A stretch of DNA of 51,437 nucleotides, taken from assembly GCA_001512785.1 (NCBI GenBank), contig LFSQ01000029.1, forward strand, positions 1-51,437, given 5' to 3'. Each line of letters starts with the position of its first letter. Within the stretch, counting starts at the first letter, position 1. A program made the translations under genes and the position numbers. Of the stretch, positions 32,341 to 44,454 are shown piece by piece. The stretch is from Syntrophomonas sp. DTU019. GTDB lineage: Bacteria; Bacillota; Syntrophomonadia; Syntrophomonadales; Syntrophomonadaceae. The notes beneath the pieces were generated by a model. That model ran no database searches, had not been told where the DNA came from, and was given only the letters and a program-made list of their open reading frames with translations.

Positions 32341-32523
32341 TTACCGGCCTGTGAAATGCGGCTTTCGTTTTTCCCGGAAAGCTGCCGCGGCTTCTGCTTT
32401 ATCCTCCGATCCCAGGGAGTATATAGACTGGACTTGTTCAAATAGCATTCCCGCCTGCAGACTGGATTCCATGGCACCCGAGCCAAGCCTCAGGTTAATC
32501 AAACCGTAATAAACCTTAGCAGA
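32341..32523 (-). pseudogene. C-terminal fragment of an enoyl-CoA hydratase (crotonase)
   Basis: About 60 codons read AKVYYGLINLRL, then LQAGMLFEQVQSIY, SLGSEDKAEA and AAFREKRKPHFTGR before a stop. The tail (xxSEDKxExxxAFxEKRKPxFxGR) is the classic crotonase C-terminus. The rest of the gene, about 200 residues, is missing, and the fragment begins exactly at the end of hypE, overlapping its last codons in another frame. This marks a recombination junction. The fragment cannot be active. Confidence 0.75.
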
Positions 32524-33526
32524 TGCGGGGTACATGCTCCCCTTCCAGAGTGCTCAGAATGCGTTTGGCCCCAAGTGCGGTCTTGAGCAATACCATGCCA
32601 GGATGATTCGCAACTACTTCTCCAATTATTGTTGCCCCTTGAGTTAAGGGATTGCTGAGCAACTCCCGCATTAAATCGTCTATACCTTCCCGACTGGCAA
32701 AGATGACCATTTTGCCTTCATTGGCCATATAGAGCGGATCCATGCCCAGCATATCACAGGCCCCTTTGACCACTGCTGAAACCGGGATGCGCTGTTCTTC
32801 TACTACTATCCCTAACCCCGCCTGAGTGGCGATCTCGTTGAGAACAGTGGCCAGCCCTCCCCGGGTTGGATCGCGCATGCACTTTATCTGCGCGGGATAC
32901 TTGCTGACCAAAGCACTCAAATGATGCAGAGCCGCGCAGTCGCTCTCTGCCGGGGTAGAAAAAGCCAGGCCTTCGCGTTGGGCCAATATGGCCAGGCCAT
33001 GGTCGCCCACCTGTCCGGTAACGATAACCTGATCCCCCGGTTTGATGCAGCGAGGGTGCAGCGATACTTCCGAATCGATTACACCAATTCCCGTAGTATT
33101 GATGAAAACCTGATCGGCGCTGCCCTTTTCCACCACTTTGGTATCTCCGGTGACCAACTTCACACCGGCTGCTGCAGCGGTTTGAGCCATAGACTTTACG
33201 ATCTGCTCCAGATCCCGGATACTCAGACCTTCTTCAATGATGAAAGCAGCACTGAGATACAAGGGGCGGGCTCCACAGGCCACCAAATCATTCACCGTGC
33301 CGCATACTGCCAGTTTGCCGATATCCCCGCCGGGGAAAAACAATGGGGTGATGACGAAAGAATCGGTGGAGACAGCAATCCGGTTTACCGGCAATTGCAA
33401 CACAGCTCCATCCAGCATGTCATCAAGGTGTGGATTGCTCCAATATTGCTTAAAAATCCTCTCTATCAGGCCTTGGCTCATCAGGCCGCCGCTGCCGTGA
33501 GCGAGAAGAACCCTTTCCTGGTTCAC
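32516..33526 (-). CDS. hypE: hydrogenase maturation carbamoyl dehydratase HypE
   Basis: The 336-aa protein begins VLLAHGSGGLMSQGLI, has the AIR-synthase-like ATP domain (DGAVLQL, STDSFVITPLFFPGG) and ends PRIC, whose terminal Cys takes the carbamoyl group from HypF and turns it into cyanide for the active-site iron. The frame is open further upstream, but GTG 33526 overlaps the hypD stop (GTGA) and gives the family N-terminus. It is the last gene of the hydrogenase operon. Confidence 0.96.
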   Translation of the reverse strand: MNQERVLLAHGSGGLMSQGLIERIFKQYWSNPHLDDMLDGAVLQLPVNRIAVSTDSFVITPLFFPGGDIGKLAVCGTVNDLVACGARPLYLSAAFIIEEGLSIRDLEQIVKSMAQTAAAAGVKLVTGDTKVVEKGSADQVFINTTGIGVIDSEVSLHPRCIKPGDQVIVTGQVGDHGLAILAQREGLAFSTPAESDCAALHHLSALVSKYPAQIKCMRDPTRGGLATVLNEIATQAGLGIVVEEQRIPVSAVVKGACDMLGMDPLYMANEGKMVIFASREGIDDLMRELLSNPLTQGATIIGEVVANHPGMVLLKTALGAKRILSTLEGEHVPRIC

Positions 33527-34611
33527 TTTGATTCTCTTCCTTTCACCGGTATGGTATAGCGATAATGCGCGGCACAGGCCCCTTCCTGCGAGACCATACA
33601 GGGGCCCACCGGGTTCATCGGGCTGCAAACGGTACCGAATAAGGCGCATTGCGCGGGCGATATTTTACCGGTTAAAATAGCCCCGCAGGCACAGCCTTTG
33701 ATGGGTTTCTCTTCAATATCCGGAACGGCAAACCTCCGGCTTGCATCGTAATCGGCATAGCTTTCACGTATAGCCAGGCCGCTCTCAGGAACGGTTCCCA
33801 GGCCGCGCCAATTTACTGCGACAGGCTCGAATACCCGGGCTATTAGGCCTTGTGCGATCGGATTGCCCTCAGGCTTGACCAGGCGCTTGTATTGGATCTC
33901 AGCCCGGGCCTGACCGCTGGCGATCTGCCGCATCAACATGCAGATGCCTTCCAAAATATCCCGCTCATCAAACCCGGTCACCACGCAGGGTTTGTGGTGC
34001 TTGCTGATCAAATCTTCATATGGGGCGCAACCTATGACCAGCGATACATGACCCGGACAGATGAGCCCGTCCACCTCTATTTCCGGGTCGGAGAATATTG
34101 CTTGCAGGGCCGGGGGCACAGTTTTGTGCAGCGACCATACCGAGAAATTGCTCACTCCCAGCCGTTGGGCTTCAATTATAGTATGAGCAATGGTCGGGGC
34201 GGTAGTTTCAAATCCGATGCCCAAGAATACCATTTCCCGGTGCGGATTTTGGCAGGCCAACTGCAGAGCGTCCAGCGGGGAATACACCACCCGTATATCC
34301 GCACCCTGACTGCGGCATTGCTGAAGGGACGACTCGCTTCCCGGAACCCTCATCATATCCCCAAAGGTCAGCAAAGTAATGTCATGATTGCGGGCCAGGT
34401 GAATAACCCTGTCGATATCGCCCTGCGAAGTAACGCAAACCGGGCATCCCGGCCCGGATATCAGCCTTATACCAGGGGGCAGCAGTTCGCGTATGCCGCT
34501 GCGGGCAATAGCCATAGTATGGGTTCCGCAAACCTCCATAAGGGTGGCCGGTTTATCAATACTACTTATCGCCTGCAATAAGCGTTGGTTATATTCCTGG
34601 TCAGTTTTCAT
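33523..34611 (-). CDS. hypD: hydrogenase maturation protein HypD
   Basis: The 362-aa Fe-S protein has MEVCGTHTMAIARSG, GPGCPVCVT, GFETTAPT and the cluster region GCACGAILTGKISPAQC. With HypC it carries the Fe(CN)2CO unit that is inserted into the [NiFe] large subunit. A frame is open to 34674, but GGAGA before ATG 34611 and the family length favour the shorter start, which overlaps hypC by 11 nt. Confidence 0.96.
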   Translation of the reverse strand: MKTDQEYNQRLLQAISSIDKPATLMEVCGTHTMAIARSGIRELLPPGIRLISGPGCPVCVTSQGDIDRVIHLARNHDITLLTFGDMMRVPGSESSLQQCRSQGADIRVVYSPLDALQLACQNPHREMVFLGIGFETTAPTIAHTIIEAQRLGVSNFSVWSLHKTVPPALQAIFSDPEIEVDGLICPGHVSLVIGCAPYEDLISKHHKPCVVTGFDERDILEGICMLMRQIASGQARAEIQYKRLVKPEGNPIAQGLIARVFEPVAVNWRGLGTVPESGLAIRESYADYDASRRFAVPDIEEKPIKGCACGAILTGKISPAQCALFGTVCSPMNPVGPCMVSQEGACAAHYRYTIPVKGRESK

Positions 34612-34834
34612 AAGCTTCTCCAATTTTCTGCAAGGCCAAAAGCCAATCCATTGTCTCCCTGGCTTCACTTTCATCTATGATTTGCATGGCGAAGCCAGCG
34701 TGTATCAAAACATACTGCCCCGGAACAACCTCCGGTGTCATAATTATGCTCACCTCAACCTGATTGCCGTTGATATCAGCGGTTGCCCGATTGGCCTCTA
34801 TGGATACGATCCTGCCCGGTACTCCCAAGCACAT
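34601..34834 (-). CDS. hypC: hydrogenase assembly chaperone HypC
   Basis: The 77-aa protein begins MCLGVPGRIV, with the essential Cys2 after Met removal, and continues with the OB-like DINGNQVEV and YVLIHAGFAM. It binds HypD and the large-subunit precursor. Its ATG shares a base with the hypF stop (TGATG). Confidence 0.97.
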   Translation of the reverse strand: MCLGVPGRIVSIEANRATADINGNQVEVSIIMTPEVVPGQYVLIHAGFAMQIIDESEARETMDWLLALQKIGEAYEN

Positions 34835-37104
34835 CAGTCTGTCACCTCACTCGCAATAGCCGCCTGTCCCAGGGCGATGCCCCCATCTCCGGCAGGAACC
34901 TGACGGTGTACATATACTTTCATATCATTTCGGGTCAATGATTCCACCAAGAGCTTTAATAGTATTTGATTATTGAAAACCCCCCCGCTGAGCACGACTT
35001 GATCTATGCCGCTCTGTTCGGCTACCAGGCGGACAGTCTCGGTAAACAGGGCCGCCAGGCTGTTATGAAAACGGGCTGCAATAGTCGTGGGAGCAACGCC
35101 CGCCTCAAGCTCATGGACAATGCTCTGCCATATAGAATTGACCTCCATTATGAGCCCATCAGGCTGCTGTTTGACCTGAAACGGGTAAACCCCGCACTCA
35201 TCCGGGTTAGCTATGGCTTCCAGTTCCATGGCGGCCTGCCCTTCGTAGCGGTTGATCGGACAGACCCCGAGTATGGCACTGACCGCATCAAAAAGCCTGC
35301 CGCAGGAGGAGGTCATAAGCTGTTCGCCGCGGCAGAGGCGGTTGATGATTATATCAGCTTCCGGCTGGCTCAGATCCGGCAGCCATTTCCGGGCATATTC
35401 CCAAGCCCTTTCCCCCAGGATTTGGTAGAGATAAATAAATGCCATACGATAGGGCTTCTTAGCAGTCAAGTCCCCACCGGGAAAAGGCATATAGGCCAGG
35501 TGAGCCATCCTCTTGAATTCCCGGTAATCACCGATCAATACCTCTGCACCCCATACCGCCCCGTCGGTTCCCCATCCGGTGCCGTCACATATCAGCCCGA
35601 TGGTCTTGCCTGAAAGACCGTTATCAGCCATGGCTGATGCCAAATGGGCATGATGATGCTGCACCGCCAGGCGCGGCAAATGATTATGCTGCATGGCCCA
35701 TCGGGTAGATTGATAGTCGGGATGCATATCGTGTGCTATAACCGCTGGGGTCACCTTGAGCATGTTTTTGAAGCGCTCGATACCTACAGTGAAATTGAGG
35801 TAATTGTTGTAATTGCCCAAATCGCCCCAGTGCTGGCTCAAAAAGGCTTCATTTCCTTTGGTGAGGCAAAAGGTGTTCTTTAAGTCGCCCCCTACGGCCA
35901 ATACCGATTCTTGCCGGCAGTTTCCGGGGAGCCTGATGCCCTGCGGCACGAACCCCCGGGCTCGCCGGATTATATTGGTGCTTATGTCGGTACAGCTCAG
36001 AACCGAATCATCGCAGGGATTAAATATATCCCGGTTGTGCAGCAGAAAATAATCGGCTATGTCGGCCAGCGAATCTAAGGCTTCATGATTATCCGTTATT
36101 ATAGGCTCATCACTGACATTGGCACTGGTCATCACCAGCAGGTCCAAATCATCGTCAAAAAGAAGGTAATGCAGCGGGCTGTAAGGCAGCATCACGCCCA
36201 GGGTATTAAGCCCGGGGTGCAGCAGATCACCCGGGATGTCAGGATGATTCAGGCTTTTCATCACTACAATGGGAGCCTGCCTGGAAAGCAGCCACTGCTC
36301 TTCCGATTTGGAAATCCGGCAGTATTGCCTGGCTGCCTCAAGGTCTCTGGCCATGACGGCAAAGGGCTTGGCGTCACGGCGTTTGCGTTTGCGCAGTAAA
36401 CGGACTGCTTCACGGTTTGAGGCATCGGCTGCCTGGTGAAAAGCCCCCAGGCCCTTTACCGCCACAATGGCCCCCGATTTCAAAACATCGATAACCTGGC
36501 TGTGAACTGGCCTGCCGTGCTTATCTGTCAGCCAGACCCTGGGACCGCAGACCGGACAGGCGTTGGGCTGGGCATGAAAACGCCGGTCGAGCGGATTACC
36601 GTATTCAGCCGCACACTCAGGACACATCGGAAAACCGGCCATGGTCGTTTTGGCCCGGTCATAGGGCACATCCTTTATTATAGTGAAACGCGGTCCGCAA
36701 TTGGTGCAGTTTATGAAAGGATAGCGGTAGCGCCGGTCACTAGGATCAAGGACCTCCCGCCGGCAGTTGTCACATATAGCGATATCCGGGGATATCATTA
36801 CCTCATGGCCTTCCTGCTCGACACTGTCCAAAATCTCGAAATCCGCATAATTCCGTACAGGAAGCTCCTCTACCTGGCAGCTCTTGATTAGGGCCAGGGG
36901 AGGCGGTTGTTCCAGGAGGGTATGAATAAACTCATCCACCTTTGGGGTTAAGCCCTCAACCTCTATGAACACCCCGCTGGAGGAATTCAAGACCCAGCCT
37001 TTAAGTCCCAACTCAACCGCCAGACGGTACACATGCGGCCTGAACCCTACTCCCTGTACAATTCCTTTAATGGTGAAACGTTTACTGCTAATAGTTTGAC
37101 TCAT
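34834..37104 (-). CDS. hypF: carbamoyltransferase HypF
   Basis: The 756-aa protein has all four domains at normal length: acylphosphatase (GVGFRPHVYRLA), two zinc fingers (CDNCRREV...CTNCGPR and CPECAAEY...CPVCGP), the YrdC-like domain, and the Kae1-like carbamoyltransferase domain with HHHAHLASAM and LSGGVFNNQ. It turns carbamoyl phosphate into the thiocarbamate on HypE. It follows the protease gene by 115 bp and is coupled to hypC. Confidence 0.97.
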   Translation of the reverse strand: MSQTISSKRFTIKGIVQGVGFRPHVYRLAVELGLKGWVLNSSSGVFIEVEGLTPKVDEFIHTLLEQPPPLALIKSCQVEELPVRNYADFEILDSVEQEGHEVMISPDIAICDNCRREVLDPSDRRYRYPFINCTNCGPRFTIIKDVPYDRAKTTMAGFPMCPECAAEYGNPLDRRFHAQPNACPVCGPRVWLTDKHGRPVHSQVIDVLKSGAIVAVKGLGAFHQAADASNREAVRLLRKRKRRDAKPFAVMARDLEAARQYCRISKSEEQWLLSRQAPIVVMKSLNHPDIPGDLLHPGLNTLGVMLPYSPLHYLLFDDDLDLLVMTSANVSDEPIITDNHEALDSLADIADYFLLHNRDIFNPCDDSVLSCTDISTNIIRRARGFVPQGIRLPGNCRQESVLAVGGDLKNTFCLTKGNEAFLSQHWGDLGNYNNYLNFTVGIERFKNMLKVTPAVIAHDMHPDYQSTRWAMQHNHLPRLAVQHHHAHLASAMADNGLSGKTIGLICDGTGWGTDGAVWGAEVLIGDYREFKRMAHLAYMPFPGGDLTAKKPYRMAFIYLYQILGERAWEYARKWLPDLSQPEADIIINRLCRGEQLMTSSCGRLFDAVSAILGVCPINRYEGQAAMELEAIANPDECGVYPFQVKQQPDGLIMEVNSIWQSIVHELEAGVAPTTIAARFHNSLAALFTETVRLVAEQSGIDQVVLSGGVFNNQILLKLLVESLTRNDMKVYVHRQVPAGDGGIALGQAAIASEVTD

Positions 37105-37219: not shown

Positions 37220-37687
37220 CTACTCACTGGCTGATAAAATATGACGAATCTCCGCTTCAACCAATTTTAACAAGCGGGGCATTTTTTCGGTTATCACCGG
37301 AGTCAATCCCAGGCCCAGTTCAACCTGGCAGGGTTCAACCCCGAAAACGGTCACCTGCGGGTGATATCCCATCAGGTTCACCACTTTAATGGCCTCGGTA
37401 AAATGCAATTCATGCAATGAGGTAACCGCAGGGCTGTCTTTCAGACCCAATTCCTCCAGAGGGGCCCGGTATATGGTCCCGGGCTCACCTCCGGCATTCA
37501 TTGAGTCTATAACTATGATGTGATCAGCCCTGCAGAATACATCCAGGATTTCGAAACTGGCGACACCGGCGTCCACCAGTTCGACTGCATCGGGCCAGGG
37601 GCGTTGGGCCAACTCCTTGATGGCATAAACGCCCAGGCCGTCATCCTTCATCAATACATTGCCAATTCCTGCAACAATAAGCTTCAA
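37220..37687 (-). CDS. hupD: [NiFe]-hydrogenase maturation endopeptidase (HyaD/HupD family)
   Basis: The 155-aa protease has GIGNVLMKDDGLG at the start, VELVDAGVASFEILD with the Ni-sensing Asp and later TSLHELHF with the conserved His region. It cleaves the large-subunit tail after nickel is inserted. It lies just downstream of the cytochrome b gene (11 bp), as expected for a dedicated protease. Confidence 0.94.
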   Translation of the reverse strand: MKLIVAGIGNVLMKDDGLGVYAIKELAQRPWPDAVELVDAGVASFEILDVFCRADHIIVIDSMNAGGEPGTIYRAPLEELGLKDSPAVTSLHELHFTEAIKVVNLMGYHPQVTVFGVEPCQVELGLGLTPVITEKMPRLLKLVEAEIRHILSASE

Positions 37688-37698
37688 GATAAATCCCC

Positions 37699-38349
37699 TC
37701 AGGCACCCAGACTACGGCTTTTATCACCTGCCATATCGGCATCACTATGGGCTCCATGGGCTCCTGCCGGGAACTTTCCGGTAAACATGGACAGAAGCAC
37801 CGGTATGCCCTCCGATACATCCAGGTAAACATGCACAACCACTGATAATACGAACAACCAGTTGACCACATAGTGAATGATGCGGACAGCCAATAACCCT
37901 CCCATCCATCCGGCCAAAGCCGGGAAGGTATTGGGAGCGTAGAGTACAAAACCGGTAATGATCTGTATCACAGCCATGATGAGCCAGCCGGTATACATCA
38001 TCTTCTGCCCGGGGTTGTACTTGCCGTAATAGGGATGGCTGTCAGCCATGAACAGATAATACTTTATCATGCTGGGGAAATTCTTGGTGTCTTGAATAGG
38101 CCGAAAAACGATGTTATGGGCATCTTTGGCCACTATGGCATAATATACCCTCCCTATCACCCCGAACAATAAGACATAGGCCATGGCAAAATGAAGCATA
38201 CGCGGAGTATCCATGTTCGAGAACAACCACCTGAAGCTGTTGGGTGCATGAATATAGAACCCGGTAATAATCAGCAGGGTAATACTGATCATATTGCTCC
38301 AGTGAAACAGCCGAATAGGAAGGGAGTGGCGTTCTACCATCTTTTTCAT
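37699..38349 (-). CDS. hupC: cytochrome b subunit of membrane-bound [NiFe]-hydrogenase
   Basis: The 216-aa protein has four or five membrane helices with histidines at heme-ligating places (RLFHWSNM in helix 1, RMLHFAMAYVLL in helix 2, RIIHYVVNWLF and VVVHVYLD late). It passes electrons from the small subunit to menaquinone. GGGGGTG stands 5 nt before the ATG. The position after the large-subunit gene is the HyaC/HupC order. Confidence 0.93.
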   Translation of the reverse strand: MKKMVERHSLPIRLFHWSNMISITLLIITGFYIHAPNSFRWLFSNMDTPRMLHFAMAYVLLFGVIGRVYYAIVAKDAHNIVFRPIQDTKNFPSMIKYYLFMADSHPYYGKYNPGQKMMYTGWLIMAVIQIITGFVLYAPNTFPALAGWMGGLLAVRIIHYVVNWLFVLSVVVHVYLDVSEGIPVLLSMFTGKFPAGAHGAHSDADMAGDKSRSLGA

Positions 38350-38360
38350 GACTACACCCC

Positions 38361-39809
38361 CTAATTTACTATAAACTGGCTGATCGTTTTCTTATTGGGA
38401 GTCATAACATGAATGGCACACCCGAAACAGGGGTCCATTGATCTGATTATGCGCACCACTTCGATGGGATTGGCCGGGTCTGCCAGCGGAGCCCCAATGA
38501 TAGCCTGTTCCATCGGTCCGGGTACATTATTGACATCTCTGGGTCCGGCGTTCCAGGTGGTAGGAACAACCGCGTTCAACACCTTGGTGCGGCCATGTTC
38601 GATTTTATGCCAGTGCCCCAGGGCTCCGCGGGAAGCTTCGCACAGGCCCATACCCAAGGCCTCATCAGGCACCTTGTGCGGAGTAGCTACGGGTTCGCCC
38701 GGCTTCAACTGCAAGACCCACTCTTTCATGGCGGCTGCAATGGCTGCGGTCTCCACCGCCCGGGCATAATGGCGCCCCATTACCGAAAAGGCCTTATTGG
38801 CACCCATGGCCACCAGGTCCGGTTGCTTGGCCACCCACTGGCGAGCCAGAGGCCCTACTTCCATGGGTTCTCCGTTGTAGCGCGGGGCTTTCAGCCAGGA
38901 ATAAGCATCCTTCTTATCGGCATCGGGTTCGACTACCGCCACGTCCGGGCTGTTGCCGCCGGTGTCATCCTTGTACCAGGAGTACTTTACTTCTTCAGTT
39001 ATCAAGGCCGGATCCAACTCTTTGAACTGGCCGCGCACATATACCCCGCTGGGGAAGAATTTCTGCTTACTTACATGGTCCCTGCCTTCTTCCAGCGGGA
39101 ACCCACCGTAAGCCAGCATATTCATACAGCCGCGTCCGATATCAAACCAATCCGGGTATGCTTCTGCCACCGCTTTTACGGTAGGAACATACACATTGTT
39201 TATAAAATCAGTCAGTTCTTCCAGTCGCACCAGGAATTCATAAATCTTCTGAGTGTCAGGCAATTCTGTTACCCCACCCGGAACAATGGCCTGCACATGC
39301 GGCATCTTGCCTCCCCAGATAGCCAGCATCTCCTGGGCTTTGCGGCGCATTTCCAGGGCCTTCAGGTAATTGTTTACCGCCTGAGCGTTGATGTCCGCAG
39401 GCAATCTGTAATCCCCGGCATATTGAGGATTTAACGGCATAACCCCTTCCGGGGCCTTCACATAGTCCAGTGCAGCCAAATGGAAGAAATGCAGAATATG
39501 GGATTGGATGTAATTGGAGCCGAAGATCAGATTACGAATGATCCTGCCATTTGGAGGTGGCTCAATACCAAAAGCGTCATCCAGGGCCAGGGCACCGGAG
39601 GTGGCATGAGAAGTGGGACAAACCCCGCAGATGCGCTGCATGATCTGCTGAGCATCCCGCGGATCGCGACCCTGCATTATCAGTTCAAACCCTCTAAAAA
39701 GGGTGCCGCTGGTATGAGCATCGACCACTATGCCGTTCTCCACCTCTACTTCTACTTTGAGATGTCCTTCAATACGAGTTACTGGATCTATTACTATCTT
39801 CTGCGCCAT
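38361..39809 (-). CDS. hupL: [NiFe]-hydrogenase large subunit (uptake type, group 1)
   Basis: The 482-aa subunit has the L1 motif RICGVCPTSHA and the C-terminal nickel motif DPCFGCAIH, followed by a 15-residue tail (VMTPNKKTISQFIVN) that HupD removes. These four cysteines hold the NiFe(CN)2CO centre. At 482 residues it is shorter than proteobacterial HupL, as seen in Firmicute group 1 enzymes. Its ATG overlaps the small-subunit stop (TGATG). Confidence 0.97.
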   Translation of the reverse strand: MAQKIVIDPVTRIEGHLKVEVEVENGIVVDAHTSGTLFRGFELIMQGRDPRDAQQIMQRICGVCPTSHATSGALALDDAFGIEPPPNGRIIRNLIFGSNYIQSHILHFFHLAALDYVKAPEGVMPLNPQYAGDYRLPADINAQAVNNYLKALEMRRKAQEMLAIWGGKMPHVQAIVPGGVTELPDTQKIYEFLVRLEELTDFINNVYVPTVKAVAEAYPDWFDIGRGCMNMLAYGGFPLEEGRDHVSKQKFFPSGVYVRGQFKELDPALITEEVKYSWYKDDTGGNSPDVAVVEPDADKKDAYSWLKAPRYNGEPMEVGPLARQWVAKQPDLVAMGANKAFSVMGRHYARAVETAAIAAAMKEWVLQLKPGEPVATPHKVPDEALGMGLCEASRGALGHWHKIEHGRTKVLNAVVPTTWNAGPRDVNNVPGPMEQAIIGAPLADPANPIEVVRIIRSMDPCFGCAIHVMTPNKKTISQFIVN

Positions 39810-40873
39810 CAGTTGTCACCCTCTTTCTCATCACTGTGCTTTTTGGGACCAATACGGCCAGTGGCGATATTGCCGGCCAAATGCCCGGCAATGCCGACCG
39901 CGGTAGCAGCCCCCAGAACAACACCGATCTGATCAACAGTAGCGGTGATACCTGGCGCTATGGGCATTTCAGGCAAGCGCGTATACATGGGCCAACCAGG
40001 GAATTGCGGCTCGGTGCAGGCCAGGCAGGGTGCGCCTGATTTGATACACCAATTGGTGCCACCGTTCCATAAGCGGGTAGTGGAGTCACAATGGGCGATG
40101 GGGCCTTTGCAGCCTACTTCCAGCAGGCAGCCAGGTTCGCTGAGGTTTTTGGCAAATATGGCATTGTCGAAATACTGCCTTCTGGGGCAATTGTCATGAA
40201 TGATATCCTTAAAGAACATTTTCGGCCTGCCAAAACGGTCCAGTTCAGGTATCTCATTATACAACAGCACGTGTGCAATCGTACCCACCATCCAATCGGG
40301 ATGCGGCGGGCAACCGGGCACATTTATGTGGGGCACATTTTTCACTACCTCGGAAACTGATTTACACTTGGTAGGATTGGGTGGGGTAGCCGGAATTCCG
40401 CCATAGGCCGAACAGGTTCCGAAGTTCAAAATGGCTGCAGCTTTGCCACCTACTTCTTGTACCAGGTCCAAGAAAGTGATATGATGTCCATCTCTTTCCC
40501 CGACCATGCAGAATTTCCCATCTGCACCGGTAGGAACTGCCCCTTCAACTACCAAATAGAATTTACCCTTGTACTCCTCGGCGACCTTAAATATCCCTTC
40601 TTCCATGGCCAAATCCCCTGCAGCCCCGGAAATATTGGGATGATAACGCAGACTGATAACATCCAACAGAATCTTCTTAATATCAGGATGCACGCTGTTC
40701 AGCAAAGACACTGAGCAGCCCGTACAACTGGCCCCTTGCAGCCAGATTACAGGTGGTGCCCCGGCTTCTACTGCCTGGGTGAGCACCGGTGCCAGAAGTG
40801 AGGTCATGGATACAGCCGCAGCACCTCCGGCACAAAGACGTATGAAATCACGTCTGGTCAGCTTGGTAGGCAT
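39809..40873 (-). CDS. hupS: [NiFe]-hydrogenase small subunit with Tat signal
   Basis: The 354-aa precursor has a Tat signal (RRDFIRLCAGG, cleavage near residue 38). Cluster motifs are GASCTGCSVSLL, GTCSAYGGIPAT, VPGCPPHPDW, DNCPRRQYF, EVGCKGPIAHCDS and CIKSGAPCLACTEPQFP, and a C-terminal helix (about 305-325) anchors it outside the membrane. CTGC without extra cysteines points to a standard oxygen-sensitive proximal cluster. With HupL and HupC it should oxidise H2 at the outer face and feed menaquinone, or run backwards during syntrophic growth. Confidence 0.97.
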   Translation of the reverse strand: MPTKLTRRDFIRLCAGGAAAVSMTSLLAPVLTQAVEAGAPPVIWLQGASCTGCSVSLLNSVHPDIKKILLDVISLRYHPNISGAAGDLAMEEGIFKVAEEYKGKFYLVVEGAVPTGADGKFCMVGERDGHHITFLDLVQEVGGKAAAILNFGTCSAYGGIPATPPNPTKCKSVSEVVKNVPHINVPGCPPHPDWMVGTIAHVLLYNEIPELDRFGRPKMFFKDIIHDNCPRRQYFDNAIFAKNLSEPGCLLEVGCKGPIAHCDSTTRLWNGGTNWCIKSGAPCLACTEPQFPGWPMYTRLPEMPIAPGITATVDQIGVVLGAATAVGIAGHLAGNIATGRIGPKKHSDEKEGDN

Positions 40874-40958: not shown

Positions 40959-41618
40959 CTAAATAACTCGCTTTCCCACCTCCTCTACCAACCACTCAGT
41001 CCATTGGGCTAAACCTTCACCAGTACGACCTGACAGCTGAAAAACCCTGATTTGAGGATTTACCAGCTGCAGGTCCCTGTTAAAAGCGTTTAAATCGAAA
41101 TCTGTATATGGCAACAGGTCTATTTTATTGAGCACTACCACCTGGGCCTGTTGAAATACCAGGGGGTATTTTAAAACCTTGTCGTGGCCTTCGGTGGTAC
41201 TCAAAACCACCACTCTGATATCTTCGCCCAGATCAAATTCGGCCGGGCAGACCAGGTTGCCGACATTTTCAATAAACAGCAGTTGAATGGGAAGATGCTC
41301 CAGGCGTGACCAGGCCTTTTCTATCATGCCGGCATCCAAATGGCAGGTGCCTTCGGTATTTATCTGCACCACTTCGACTCCCTTGTTCTCAATGCGCATG
41401 GCATCCTGGTCAGTATACAGATCCCCTTCAATTACCCCTAATTCTATGCGTCCCCGCAAAGCTTCGATGGTTTTTTCCAGAAGGGTGGTCTTGCCTGAAC
41501 CAGGCGAGCTCATCAAATTTATCACCAACAACCCTCTGGCTTTAAAGATGCGGCGGTTTTTGGCGGCCAGCATATCATTGGCCCCTAATAGGTTAGTTTC
41601 CATGCGTATTTGCGCCAT
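40959..41618 (-). CDS. hypB: nickel-inserting GTPase HypB, without His-rich tail
   Basis: The 219-aa GTPase has the P-loop SSPGSGKTT, GDLYTDQDA, the metal-site region TEGTCHLDA and VCPAEFDLGED, and NKID. The N-terminus (MAQIRMETNLLG) has neither the CxxCGC high-affinity nickel site nor a histidine stretch, so Ni storage must come from elsewhere; the neighbouring CooT-His6 fusion is a candidate. GGGGAAGAGA precedes ATG 41618, which overlaps the end of hypA by 26 nt. Confidence 0.95.
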   Translation of the reverse strand: MAQIRMETNLLGANDMLAAKNRRIFKARGLLVINLMSSPGSGKTTLLEKTIEALRGRIELGVIEGDLYTDQDAMRIENKGVEVVQINTEGTCHLDAGMIEKAWSRLEHLPIQLLFIENVGNLVCPAEFDLGEDIRVVVLSTTEGHDKVLKYPLVFQQAQVVVLNKIDLLPYTDFDLNAFNRDLQLVNPQIRVFQLSGRTGEGLAQWTEWLVEEVGKRVI

Positions 41619-41979
41619 TCTCTTCCCCTTTTCCGGAATCCCCTTCGTAATACTCAACGAATAATTCTCGCCCGCTCAGCAAGTGGCTGGCTTTGCTGCC
41701 GCAATTAGGGCAGAGTTGGCCATAGGGCATGTCGGGCAGGTACTTTTCCCCGCATTGACAGCATTGATAAGCAACCTCCCTCTCTTCAATAAGCAGTTCG
41801 GTTCCCTGAAACAGGCCATCCCTGGCCATAGTGTGAAAAGCAAATCTGAGGCTGTGCGGCATGGCCATAGTCAACTTGCCAACAACCAGCTTGATGCGGC
41901 TTATACGGGTGATGTTGTTGTGGGCTGCGCTTTCGCGAACCATATTCATCATTTCTGCTATTAACGACATTTCGTGCAA
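41593..41979 (-). CDS. hypA: hydrogenase nickel incorporation protein HypA
   Basis: The 128-aa protein begins HEMSLIAEMM and has the zinc site CCQCGEKY...CPNCGSKAS. HypA needs Met1-His2 as its nickel site, and only the TTG at 41979 places His second, with AAAAGGGG 9 nt upstream; the ATG at 42003 would add eight residues and ruin the site. It is the first gene of the hydrogenase operon and lies 28 bp behind a leader terminator. Confidence 0.93.
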   Translation of the reverse strand: MHEMSLIAEMMNMVRESAAHNNITRISRIKLVVGKLTMAMPHSLRFAFHTMARDGLFQGTELLIEEREVAYQCCQCGEKYLPDMPYGQLCPNCGSKASHLLSGRELFVEYYEGDSGKGEENGANTHGN

Positions 41980-42294
41980 AATACAGGCCCCTTTTGGTAT
42001 CAATAATTAAAAAATCCGGCTGCGAAGAGAAGCCGGGCATTTGCGCACACAAGCATTAGCAGACATTATAAATCGTATCGCCAACGTCTGCCATACCAGA
42101 ACATCTCCTACTCACAATACGGGAAGGCACAACCGTTTCCAGTTGTACCCCGGCCAGAAAACCATAGCTTGGCGAAGGCCTTAGGTCTACTGGCTTGGAG
42201 GTTATGCAATTATAAATTACAAGGATTTTTAAGTCCTTTTTCTACAATTATCGCTATTGACATATATTCTACCTGCTAAATGATTTTCCTGCAA
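41980..42294 (-). promoter_or_regulatory. hydrogenase operon promoter and riboswitch-like leader (Moco-riboswitch-like)
   Basis: On the minus strand TTGCAG (42289-42294), 17 bp, TAGAAT (42266-42271) starts a leader of about 280 nt. CTCC (42197-42200) can pair with GGAG (42105-42108). Inside are GCCAG/CTGGC closing CCTAAG (42180-42185) and TATGG (42162-42166), the two halves of the 11-nt GAAA receptor, and then a hairpin ACAACTG-GAAA-CGGTTGT (42129-42146). A 9-bp hairpin (42059-42091) and an intrinsic terminator follow. Parts resemble the Moco riboswitch consensus as I remember it (CCTCCxAGCC, CTGG, GCCTYCC). The class call is inference; the tetraloop, receptor and terminator are seen. Confidence 0.65.
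42007..42037 (-). terminator. leader terminator before hypA
   Basis: The stem CCGGCT/AGCCGG is followed on the minus strand by ATTTTTTAATT. It ends 28 bp before the hypA start, where an expression platform would lie. Confidence 0.8.
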
Positions 42295-42410
42295 ATTAGC
42301 AATCTATTTTTGTGAAAAGGATAACAATATCCGCTATAGGGAACCTTTTTCCCGATATAAGGAAATTCGCATATTTAAGTTTAAGTTTCTCGCAACCATC
42401 CAGTCAAAAT

Positions 42411-42456
42411 AGAAAAACCATGAAGCGCCTGGCTTTATACCGCTTGCGCTCCATGG
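42411..42456 (-). terminator. terminator of the DUF3842-FmdE-CooT operon
   Basis: An 11-bp stem (CCATGGAGCGC with GCGCTTCATGG, one wobble) is followed by TTTTTC on the minus strand. It separates the metal-handling operon from the hydrogenase promoter. A smaller GCGGGA/TCCCGC hairpin lies just before it, near 42488-42504. Confidence 0.8.
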
Positions 42457-42514
42457 CCTGTTCAGGTGGCTTTATTTGATAATCAGGCGGGAATTTATCC
42501 CGCGATGAATAAAC

Positions 42515-43312
42515 CTATACGCCCTTGACCAGGGTAAAGGTCGTTATTATACCGTCATAAGTGGAGGAAAAAAGGTAATGCCCGCGCGCGGAGAGAAAGA
42601 ATTTCGCCCGACCCCAATCATCGCTTTTCTGCCGGCGTGGATACTCCTGACCGCCGGCGCTGGCATAAGTAGCCTTTATTTCCACACCCGCCAGGGGCTG
42701 CCCGTTTCTCAATAATTGAACCTCATAGTATTCACCGATGCGGGCATGGCTGTATCCACTGGGCACGATTTCCAAAGGCAGGCCGATAGGGTCGATATGA
42801 TGGTGATGGTGATGACCGATTTCGACAAGAATTTTAGCATACAGTTCCGGATCTCCGGGTTGATGGACAATCACTTGTATTAATCCGTCAACTTCCTGTC
42901 CGGGATACAGCCAGTACTGGCCTTTATCGAGAAGCACCTGCAGTTCGCGCCTGCCCGCGCTGTTTATCAAAAAAGCCTGCACATCTTCCAATGAGGCATC
43001 TTGAGGCTGCATGTTATATCCCTTAAACAGCTTGAGTCTTACTTCTTCACCTTCATGAAAATGACCGTGGTCAGTATCCGGTTCCAGCCACAATTCACCC
43101 GGTCTAACCGAGGCTGGTTGAGGAATCTCTTCCACTATGATGCGATGGCGTACCAGTTCCAGCTCACGAAAACGAGCCTTGATGACCTTGCGTTCACCAA
43201 AGATGTTTTCCATGAAAAGGGTGTTATCCTCACCGGGGATAATCCTGTCCACTCTTTCCATCAGCAGTTGCTCCTGTCCATCGCGTAACAGGTAGACATT
43301 GGCTTCACACAT
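42515..43312 (-). CDS. CooT nickel-binding domain fused to DUF4198-like domain with His6 tract
   Basis: Residues 1-62 match CooT (MCEANVYLLRDGQEQLLMERVD, shortened here, then ENIFGERKVIKAR), including the Ni-binding Cys2. Residues about 65-265 form beta-rich domains; the last part (LPLEIVPSGYSHARIGE, VQLLRNGQPLAGVEIKATY) is DUF4198/NikK-like, a fold linked to nickel uptake. Residues 167-172 are six histidines, and HGHFH stands at 82-86. There is no signal peptide, so the protein is cytosolic. GGGGGG 8 nt before ATG 43312 and the need for Cys2 fix the start. It overlaps fmdE by 8 nt. A role as a nickel store or carrier for the hydrogenase is inference. Confidence 0.75.
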   Translation of the reverse strand: MCEANVYLLRDGQEQLLMERVDRIIPGEDNTLFMENIFGERKVIKARFRELELVRHRIIVEEIPQPASVRPGELWLEPDTDHGHFHEGEEVRLKLFKGYNMQPQDASLEDVQAFLINSAGRRELQVLLDKGQYWLYPGQEVDGLIQVIVHQPGDPELYAKILVEIGHHHHHHIDPIGLPLEIVPSGYSHARIGEYYEVQLLRNGQPLAGVEIKATYASAGGQEYPRRQKSDDWGRAKFFLSARGHYLFSSTYDGIITTFTLVKGV

Positions 43313-43919
43313 CGGTATTTCCCCCCTTTTGCACCTCAAAACAGGGCTGGCATAGAACCCTGTCCCCGCTCTTAATGGCCCGCGGTTCCATGACCCCTTC
43401 CCCGCAGCCGGCGCAGGTCAAGGTGTTGTATATATGGGCTCGCGGAGGAAGATCGACCCTTACTTCCTTCCAGTTAAACAGTTCTTCATAGGGGCAGGTC
43501 ATGATCTCTTCAAACAGGTCCTGCAGGGCTTGTTCCAGCTCTTCCTGTTCGGCTTGATTAAGGTCAGTCCGCCCTTTGAGTTCACGATAACGCTGTCCAG
43601 CTGTACCGCCGGATGCGCGTCTTAACTGCGCGATGCGCAGGGCTCGCCCGCTGCTGCGATCAATGACGGTATAAACGGCTTTACCATAGTCTTTGAAAAT
43701 CAGATTGCCTTTGCCGAAAGTACAGCCTAATATGGCCTGCAGGGCATCCACACCGCAGGAATCGGTTTCTACAATTGCTACCAGATCCTCATCCCGATCC
43801 CTTTCCAGGCTGAGCTGATCCATGGCTAACTGCGCTGCTCTTACCCCCATCAGCAAGCCCGGACAAATATGGCCATGAAACTGTATGGCTAACTCCAGCG
43901 GGGACATGTCTTTACACAT
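43305..43919 (-). CDS. fmdE: FmdE-family protein with C-terminal zinc ribbon
   Basis: The 204-aa protein has the FmdE core (FHGHICPGLLMGVRAAQLAM, VETDSCGVDALQAILGCTFGKGNL) and a C-terminal ribbon CAGCGEGVMEPR...CQPC. FmdE was named from formylmethanofuran dehydrogenase operons; its exact role is unknown, though the conserved His and Cys suggest metal or cofactor binding linked to Mo/W enzymes. ATG 43919 overlaps the DUF3842 stop (TAATG) and has AAGGTGG upstream; the longer ATG 43940 is less likely. Confidence 0.9.
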   Translation of the reverse strand: MCKDMSPLELAIQFHGHICPGLLMGVRAAQLAMDQLSLERDRDEDLVAIVETDSCGVDALQAILGCTFGKGNLIFKDYGKAVYTVIDRSSGRALRIAQLRRASGGTAGQRYRELKGRTDLNQAEQEELEQALQDLFEEIMTCPYEELFNWKEVRVDLPPRAHIYNTLTCAGCGEGVMEPRAIKSGDRVLCQPCFEVQKGGNTDV

Positions 43920-44371
43920 TAAGGTAAACCACCTTTCCATTCCTGCTTTATATTCTGACTGTTAAGGCAATGGTTTTTTACTCTGGCCACCAGTTGATCG
44001 ACCTGAATAGGCAGAGGCTCATCCTGGCTGCAGCTGAGTTCAATACCACAGCGGTTCATGGGTATCAGGATCTTGGTAGCTGGAGAAGAGGTTATGGCTT
44101 CGGCCATTCTTGTGGTCAACTCCCCACAATAGCTGTTGGCAGCAATTATGGCCACTGAACCGGCGATCAGGTCCACCCGTGCAGCTGACCAGATTACTGC
44201 ATTTTCCCCACTGGCCCCGTCATTGGCACCAGCCTTTAACATGACCGAAGTAGCCACCGCATTGGTTCCCAACCCGATAATGTATATTTCCTGGCCCAAT
44301 TCCTTGCGCAGTTTTTCGATTATCAGGCGACCGATCCCGCCACCTTGGCCGTCAATTACAGCAATTTTCAA
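43919..44371 (-). CDS. DUF3842 family protein
   Basis: The 150-aa protein begins KIAVIDGQGGGIGRLIIEKL, a nucleotide-binding-like glycine loop, and continues with GLGTNAVATSVMLKAGA, GSVAIIAANSYCGELT and ILIPMNRCGIEL. This is the DUF3842 pattern found in anaerobes, function unknown. GGAGGGGGG before TTG 44371 decides the start; the longer ATG frame has no site. It is the first gene of a tight three-gene operon with fmdE and the CooT fusion, so a role in metal or cofactor supply is likely. Confidence 0.85.
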   Translation of the reverse strand: MKIAVIDGQGGGIGRLIIEKLRKELGQEIYIIGLGTNAVATSVMLKAGANDGASGENAVIWSAARVDLIAGSVAIIAANSYCGELTTRMAEAITSSPATKILIPMNRCGIELSCSQDEPLPIQVDQLVARVKNHCLNSQNIKQEWKGGLP

Positions 44372-44454
44372 GTCGTCCCCCCTCCCCGCCTGGTCTATAT
44401 AATTATATAATTCTACCGATTTCATGTTTTATTATAATAACACATTTGCCGGGG

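Follow-up and report, generated by a model that had tools for sequence, protein, structure and literature searches.

A CooT-DUF4198 fusion gene, found across one order of Bacillota, in the neighbourhood of nickel transporter and [NiFe] hydrogenase genes

The fusion gene and its neighbourhood

We analysed a stretch of 51,437 nucleotides from Syntrophomonas sp. DTU019 (contig LFSQ01000029.1; hereafter the window), in which a gene that combines a CooT and a DUF4198 domain lies on the minus strand ahead of the genes for a [NiFe] hydrogenase and its maturation. The features that matter here are, from upstream to downstream:

43919..44425, minus strand: DUF3842 gene (Pfam); precedes the fusion gene in 39 of 40 loci
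43305..43940, minus strand: gene for FmdE with a zinc-finger match at its C-terminus; shares 8 bases with the beginning of the fusion gene; found in 36 of 40 loci
42515..43312, minus strand: cooT-DUF4198 fusion gene, 265 aa plus stop (translation, Pfam, homologue alignment)
43130..43312, minus strand: CooT domain, residues 1-61 (Pfam PF10133; 6FAN match over residues 2-64)
43307..43309, minus strand: codon of Cys2, the position of the CooT nickel ligand (38 of 38 proteins; by analogy with R. rubrum CooT)
42518..43105, minus strand: DUF4198 domain, residues ~70-265 (Pfam PF10670 at 156-252; fold matches at 70-265)
43055..43069, minus strand: HGHFH, residues 82-86 (38 of 38 proteins)
42797..42814, minus strand: histidine tract at residues 167-172, of which five are conserved and the sixth is peculiar to the window
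42089..42212, minus strand: Moco/Tuco riboswitch RF01055 at the head of the hypA-hydrogenase operon (60.9 bits against a gathering score of 36)
40959..42003, minus strand: hypA and hypB (hypA with 83.5 bits, slightly below the NCBIfam cut-off of 88.1)
37220..40873, minus strand: [NiFe] hydrogenase small and large subunit (by family search), and what we take from the sequence, rather than from a family search, to be cytochrome b and a maturation protease
32516..37104, minus strand: presumably hypF, hypC, hypD and hypE (named from sequence rather than by family search)

The fusion gene is a single unbroken frame with the N-terminus MCEANVYL, and both of its domains scored over the Pfam cut-offs: PF10133 (CooT) with 80.9 bits over residues 1-61 (cut-off 27) and PF10670 (DUF4198) with 61.2 bits over residues 156-252 (cut-off 34), while an NCBIfam search of the protein assigned no family. 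The joining of the two domains in one gene, as proposed in the initial annotation, was thus borne out, as were the HGHFH motif at residues 82-86 and the adjoining hydrogenase operon, which starts ~511 bp downstream on the same strand. The protein had also been described as devoid of a signal peptide, which is supported in that no leader is visible, because the CooT fold, as predicted in the structural model, begins already at residue 2. That two separate genes had been merged by the assembly or by a frameshift, the finding that would have undone the annotation, fails as an explanation across an order: the 40 loci that we examined yielded 38 intact fusion proteins, and an artefact is thereby ruled out. 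Dropped were the locus of G006, where the apparent split of the fusion is a run of N and no real break, and that of G026 (L140), where stops and frame changes disrupt the gene; no [NiFe] hydrogenase was detected in the latter genome.

The surroundings of the fusion gene were largely conserved on the upstream side, the sole locus that lacks the DUF3842 gene being one at which the contig is cut. The FmdE protein of the window has an HGHICP motif of its own. Downstream, the next of the searched genes was of the CbiM/NikM type in 20 of the 40 loci, usually followed by genes for NikN/PDGLE, CbiQ and an ATPase (Pfam families of the transporter were confirmed at G002 and G024 only), and it was the gene for HypA or for the hydrogenase small subunit in another 11. 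The transporter genes, together with the nickel-bound DUF4198 protein of known structure (9GCB), support the placing of the DUF4198 half in the world of nickel uptake. Neither a transporter nor a hydrogenase gene came next on the same strand in the remaining 9 loci, among them those of G029 and G030, whose contigs end within 2.4 kb; in G026, matches to CbiM, CbiQ and CbiO lie on the opposite strand. In the window, no transporter gene adjoins the fusion, and the one CbiM gene of its genome (G000) is on another contig. These 9 loci and the situation in the window count against the role in nickel transfer that we propose below. The window and G006 have probably lost the transporter genes, because the same-genus genome G007 has NikMNQO genes at the spot that corresponds to positions 42004-42514 of the window, where they are missing in both.

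Distribution and partner enzyme

CooT was recovered in 39 of the 63 genomes of the order, 38 of which carry it in a long, fused frame and one as a decayed copy; the long frames number 39 (248-442 aa), as G024 contains two. A search at the level of the class returned the same 63 genomes, and a search at the level of the family found the fusion family in 32 of 54. Within the order, DUF4198 matches occurred in exactly those 39 genomes and exceeded the cut-off in 38 of them, always inside the fusion gene; the remaining matches were one in the broken copy of G026 and an extra one in G030 below the cut-off. In a sample of the whole phylum, CooT was present in 119 of 398 genomes, 11 of them genomes of the order, with 12 frames of 266-328 aa. 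Frames of more than 180 aa were found in none of the 108 CooT-positive genomes outside the order, and no DUF4198 place coincided there with any CooT place, PF10670 matches below the cut-off having been excluded from the DUF4198 counts outside the order. The search for the same domain combination in other genomes, which the initial annotation had put forward as a check, therefore shows that the fusion marks the order within what was searched (38 of 39 carriers inside, 0 of 108 outside). The order in question would be Syntrophomonadales. Beyond the phylum the coverage consisted of a scan of named genomes by patterns taken from the window protein, which distant fusions could escape; it gave 22 loci, 3 with CooT alone and 19 spanning the fusion, and the carriers of the latter were Syntrophomonas, Syntrophomonadaceae or metagenome-assembled genomes of unclassified Bacillota/Firmicutes. 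No paper on a CooT-DUF4198 fusion was present among the literature matches listed; we take the 'Coot' in the only listed match that combines CooT, nickel and DUF4198, PMC12537917, to be the modelling program.

The enzyme with which the fusion is associated is the [NiFe] hydrogenase and not the TIGR01702 type of CO dehydrogenase. The hydrogenase large subunit was detected in 36 of the 63 genomes, 33 with and 3 without the fusion, and the complete tally (33 with both, 6 with CooT only, 3 with the hydrogenase only, 21 with neither) corresponds to a Fisher p of 2e-8, uncorrected for shared ancestry. The CO dehydrogenase family TIGR01702 passed its cut-off in only two of the 63 genomes (G048 and G058) and not in G000, so that, as far as TIGR01702 goes, CO dehydrogenase is ruled out as the partner in this order. 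Weak matches to TIGR01702, all of at most 30.4 bits, were obtained in 39 further genomes; these are presumably hybrid-cluster proteins. The exceptions to the hydrogenase association also count against the proposed role in nickel transfer: the fusion is present in six genomes in which no [NiFe] hydrogenase was detected (G019, G020, G026, G028, G029 and G030), of which G030 is rated 100% complete, and three genomes have a hydrogenase and no fusion (G027, G055 and G060).

The association departs from what has been described for CooT, which was reported together with CO dehydrogenase in 85 of 111 proteomes (PMC6006190). According to the accessible part of the same review, Cys2 of R. rubrum CooT is a nickel ligand and the protein binds nickel with a Kd of 9 nM, CooT, CooC and CooJ take no part in the maturation of the Coo hydrogenase of R. 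rubrum, and the function of CooT is termed unclear (PMC6006190). That CooT has no part in maturing the Coo hydrogenase likewise speaks against the role in nickel transfer proposed below. The fusion shows CooT outside CO dehydrogenase biology.

Fold, relatives and candidate metal site

The first half of the protein resembles the CooT proteins of R. rubrum and C. hydrogenoformans (6FAN) in its Pfam match over residues 1-61, in Cys2 and in an identity of 52% to 6FAN; it differs from them in that known CooT proteins stand alone and measure 60-70 residues, whereas here the domain is part of a fused protein of 265 aa that is tied to a [NiFe] hydrogenase. An AlphaFold model, built on a 21-sequence alignment (mean pLDDT 85.1, pTM 0.75), places the second domain at residues ~70-265, a wider stretch than the Pfam match covers. 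When the model was compared with known structures, the best match was Zcp (9MHJ; Z 22.9, rmsd 2.2, 190 residues aligned), followed by the nickel-bound DUF4198 protein 9GCB (Z 16.4, rmsd 3.1, 170 aligned) and, for residues 2-64, by CooT 6FAN (Z 12.8, rmsd 1.3, 62 aligned); all matches after these three had a Z of 6.6 or lower.

Eleven residues are invariant in the 38 intact proteins: C2, H56, H82, G83, H84, F85, H86, G166, H167, H170 and H189. Within the tract, the other histidines are conserved to varying degrees (H168 in 37, H169 in 36 and H171 in 32 of the 38 proteins), and H172 occurs in one protein only, that of the window itself; the conserved feature is therefore a tract of five histidines, and the sixth is an extension of the window's own. 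The six-histidine tract that had been noted initially is consequently present in the window at residues 167-172 as HHHHHH, but only five of its residues are conserved. Four or five histidines in succession were found in 35 of the 38 proteins, which contain 12-22 histidines each, and two proteins (G030 and G059) have no run of even three and keep the other conserved residues.

The fusion shares with Zcp (9MHI-9MHN) the closest fold and the conserved HxH and GH histidines that are replaced in a Zcp mutant, while the identity is ~20% and Zcp lacks a CooT part; no paper on Zcp was among the literature matches listed. The solved triple mutant of Zcp is titled H29A, H31A, H142A, and in a profile alignment the position at which the mutant has Ala in place of the His of Zcp coincides with H167 of the fusion. 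The other two positions were reached through the leaderless DUF4198 protein of L159: in its alignment with Zcp the His pair missing from the mutant falls on the SHGH motif of L159, and this motif aligns in turn with the HGHFH stretch of the fusion, although it is ambiguous, by two residues, which of the three histidines form the pair. By these alignments the counterparts of Zcp H29, H31 and H142 in the fusion are the HxH motif and His167, from which we infer a putative three-histidine site, composed of the HxH pair and the GH histidine, with the tract built round its third ligand.

Secreted DUF4198/NikK proteins (IsDUF4198, 9GCB) have in common with the fusion the Pfam domain and the fold, and ECF nickel/cobalt transporter genes lie beside the fusion in half of the loci (20 of 40), the window not among them. 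Unlike the secreted proteins, the fusion has no evident leader and has gained the five-histidine tract, and it lacks the histidine three residues before the conserved Trp that other DUF4198 proteins have (AHELW, GHExW): this histidine was present in none of the 38 fusions, 8 of which have a histidine four residues before the Trp. IsDUF4198 is nickel-bound and prefers nickel, which it binds through the N-terminal His and His18, as stated in the portion of PMC12537917 at hand; a secreted relative (L160) gave no PDB match, and the His18 ligand of 9GCB could thus not be placed by sequence. For DUF4198 of Caulobacter, the literature as partially available concerns iron acquisition and was of no help as a guide.

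Among the 27 DUF4198 proteins used, 12 stand-alone ones of other Bacillota were read as leaderless. Eleven of these (L151-L155, L158, L159, L161-L163 and L168) contain GHExW, [ST]HxH and VGH, and L166 has none of the three. The eleven resemble the fusion in the missing leader and in the [ST]HxH and VGH motifs and differ from it by being unfused, by keeping GHExW and by having no histidine tract. In L159, which belongs to another family, the leaderless gene follows an FmdE gene, and in L155 it follows a gene for a family-5 solute-binding protein (SBP_bac_5). A tree was made of 37 domains, 27 from the 30 DUF4198 loci fetched and 10 from the 38 fused rows; L157 and L167 were left out for want of a usable frame and L165 for an uncertain one, and L149, L164 and L166 were flagged for long branches. 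The fused domains form one group (100/100), and fused and leaderless domains stand together, apart from the secreted ones (83/93), with the leaderless proteins not resolved as one group. CooJ may be added as a further comparison, a histidine-rich nickel protein of CooT operons that is a separate protein, as far as described in PMC6006190.

A tentative scenario of origin, which we consider possible if less likely than not, is that a NikK/DUF4198 protein became cytosolic in an order of syntrophs and was joined to CooT, and that CooT thereby shifted from CO dehydrogenase to the maturation of [NiFe] hydrogenase. A single polypeptide would then span the step from import to HypA/HypB, and a cysteine module at its N-terminus would take the place of the N-terminal histidine used by secreted DUF4198 proteins.

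Proposed function and further features of the hydrogenase operon

To our knowledge, the route by which imported nickel reaches HypA/HypB is an open question. We propose, with a probability of about one half, that the fusion is a cytosolic nickel acceptor or chaperone that acts between import and HypA/HypB. Nickel would enter through a NikMNQO-type transporter and be captured by the leaderless DUF4198 domain, in which the HGH motif and His167 would form a discrete site and the other histidines of the tract would serve as extra ligands or as an entry path. Next, the CooT domain, with Cys2 at its N-terminus as the counterpart of the nickel ligand known from CooT, would hold the nickel or take part in passing it on, and HypA/HypB would finally receive it for insertion into the adjoining [NiFe] hydrogenase. 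The analysis establishes the fusion and its conservation, the residues concerned, the folds at the level of the model, the order of the genes and the co-occurrence; nickel as the metal, its binding, the direction of its transfer, the partners and a dimerisation of the protein are inferred.

The initial annotation had seen in the protein a cytosolic buffer. In a nickel store of this kind the histidine tract would soak up the metal and give it off again passively, and the transfer would have no direction. The runs of four or five histidines in 35 of the 38 proteins, the totals of 12-22 histidines, the missing leader and the likeness to the equally histidine-rich CooJ, which is found with CooT in R. 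rubrum (accessible text of PMC6006190), are all in line with a buffer, but the invariant single histidines (82, 84, 86, 167, 170 and 189) exceed what a buffer needs, and G030 and G059 have retained the rest of the protein without a run of three. These histidines match the discrete three-histidine site of Zcp and the neighbourhood points to a hand-over between import and maturation, so that of the cytosolic buffer there remains one possibility among several, and a rather unlikely one. We regard as similarly unlikely that DUF3842, FmdE and the fusion form a trio with a wider role, in the handling of metal for another enzyme or in metal sensing, to which the hydrogenase is just a frequent neighbour. 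Both upstream genes (39 and 36 of 40 loci) are more constant than the hydrogenase link, the fusion persists in the six genomes in which no [NiFe] hydrogenase was detected, including one that is rated complete, and FmdE precedes the leaderless DUF4198 gene of L159 as well; against this stand the strong co-occurrence with the hydrogenase (33 of 39) and the transporter or hyp-hydrogenase genes that follow the fusion in 31 of the 40 loci.

The identity of the metal is the subject of a last alternative, in which the DUF4198 half acts like Zcp on zinc or another metal and its connection with nickel is fortuitous. Zcp heads the structural matches (Z 22.9) and its entries name zinc, copper and cobalt in their titles, and nickel is therefore not assured for the fusion. 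The invariant Cys2 of the CooT half, the nickel/cobalt transporter and hyp genes that adjoin the fusion, and the preference of IsDUF4198 for nickel, as given in the available part of PMC12537917, nevertheless make this alternative very improbable. With the nickel acceptor or chaperone as the preferred reading, two kinds of nickel protein that are fused throughout an order, between the genes of importer and hydrogenase, constitute a testable object for the study of nickel hand-over.

The hydrogenase operon itself is headed by the RF01055 riboswitch, which was found directly before hypA in 17 genomes including that of the window (G000, G006, G007, G013, G014, G015, G016, G035, G039, G042, G045, G048, G049, G054, G056, G057 and G058), with tandem copies in G013 and G042. 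The operons that start with hypA and whose upstream region was scanned numbered 18. The exception was G062, and none of the three operons that start with the small subunit (G002, G003 and G005) had the element; further copies head divergent genes in G024, G025, G042 and G045. The Moco RNA has been tied to genes of the Mo/W cofactor, with at least 15 copies in Syntrophomonas wolfei (Regulski et al. 2008; PMC2408646), and the words 'hydrogenase' and 'nickel' are absent from the portion of that text examined. The arrangement suggests that a nickel enzyme is under the control of the Mo/W cofactor, and the cells might in this way trade nickel hydrogenase against Mo/W formate dehydrogenase.

One in-frame TGA was observed in the N-terminal part of the hydrogenase large subunit in 11 genomes of the order. 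In all five genes read (L111, L116, L122, L125 and L126) it takes the place of the second Cys in the L1 motif (CGVU), a position at which the large subunit of the window has Cys; both Cys of the C-terminal L4 motif are retained in all 21 large subunits compared. Known selenocysteine in such hydrogenases sits in L4, and the L1 position was not named in the literature matches found, as far as their text was available. A hairpin of seven pairs with a six-base loop, which starts 12 bases after the TGA, is common to the five TGA genes and occurs in none of the 16 Cys versions, some of which (L108, L109) have other hairpins there; its likeness among the genes may partly come from the protein, because the region is coding. 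A tRNA-Sec match of at least 68 bits was obtained in 10 of the 11 TGA genomes, the exception being G050, and tRNA-Sec exceeded the cut-off in 56 of the 63 genomes of the order and in 5 of 14 control genomes. Judged from these sequence patterns, the UGA in L1 is a candidate selenocysteine codon and the hairpin a candidate SECIS-like element. A long CRISPR array with Rfam CRISPR-DR2 repeats was also observed near the locus in G035 (L126, 16838-19846, plus strand).
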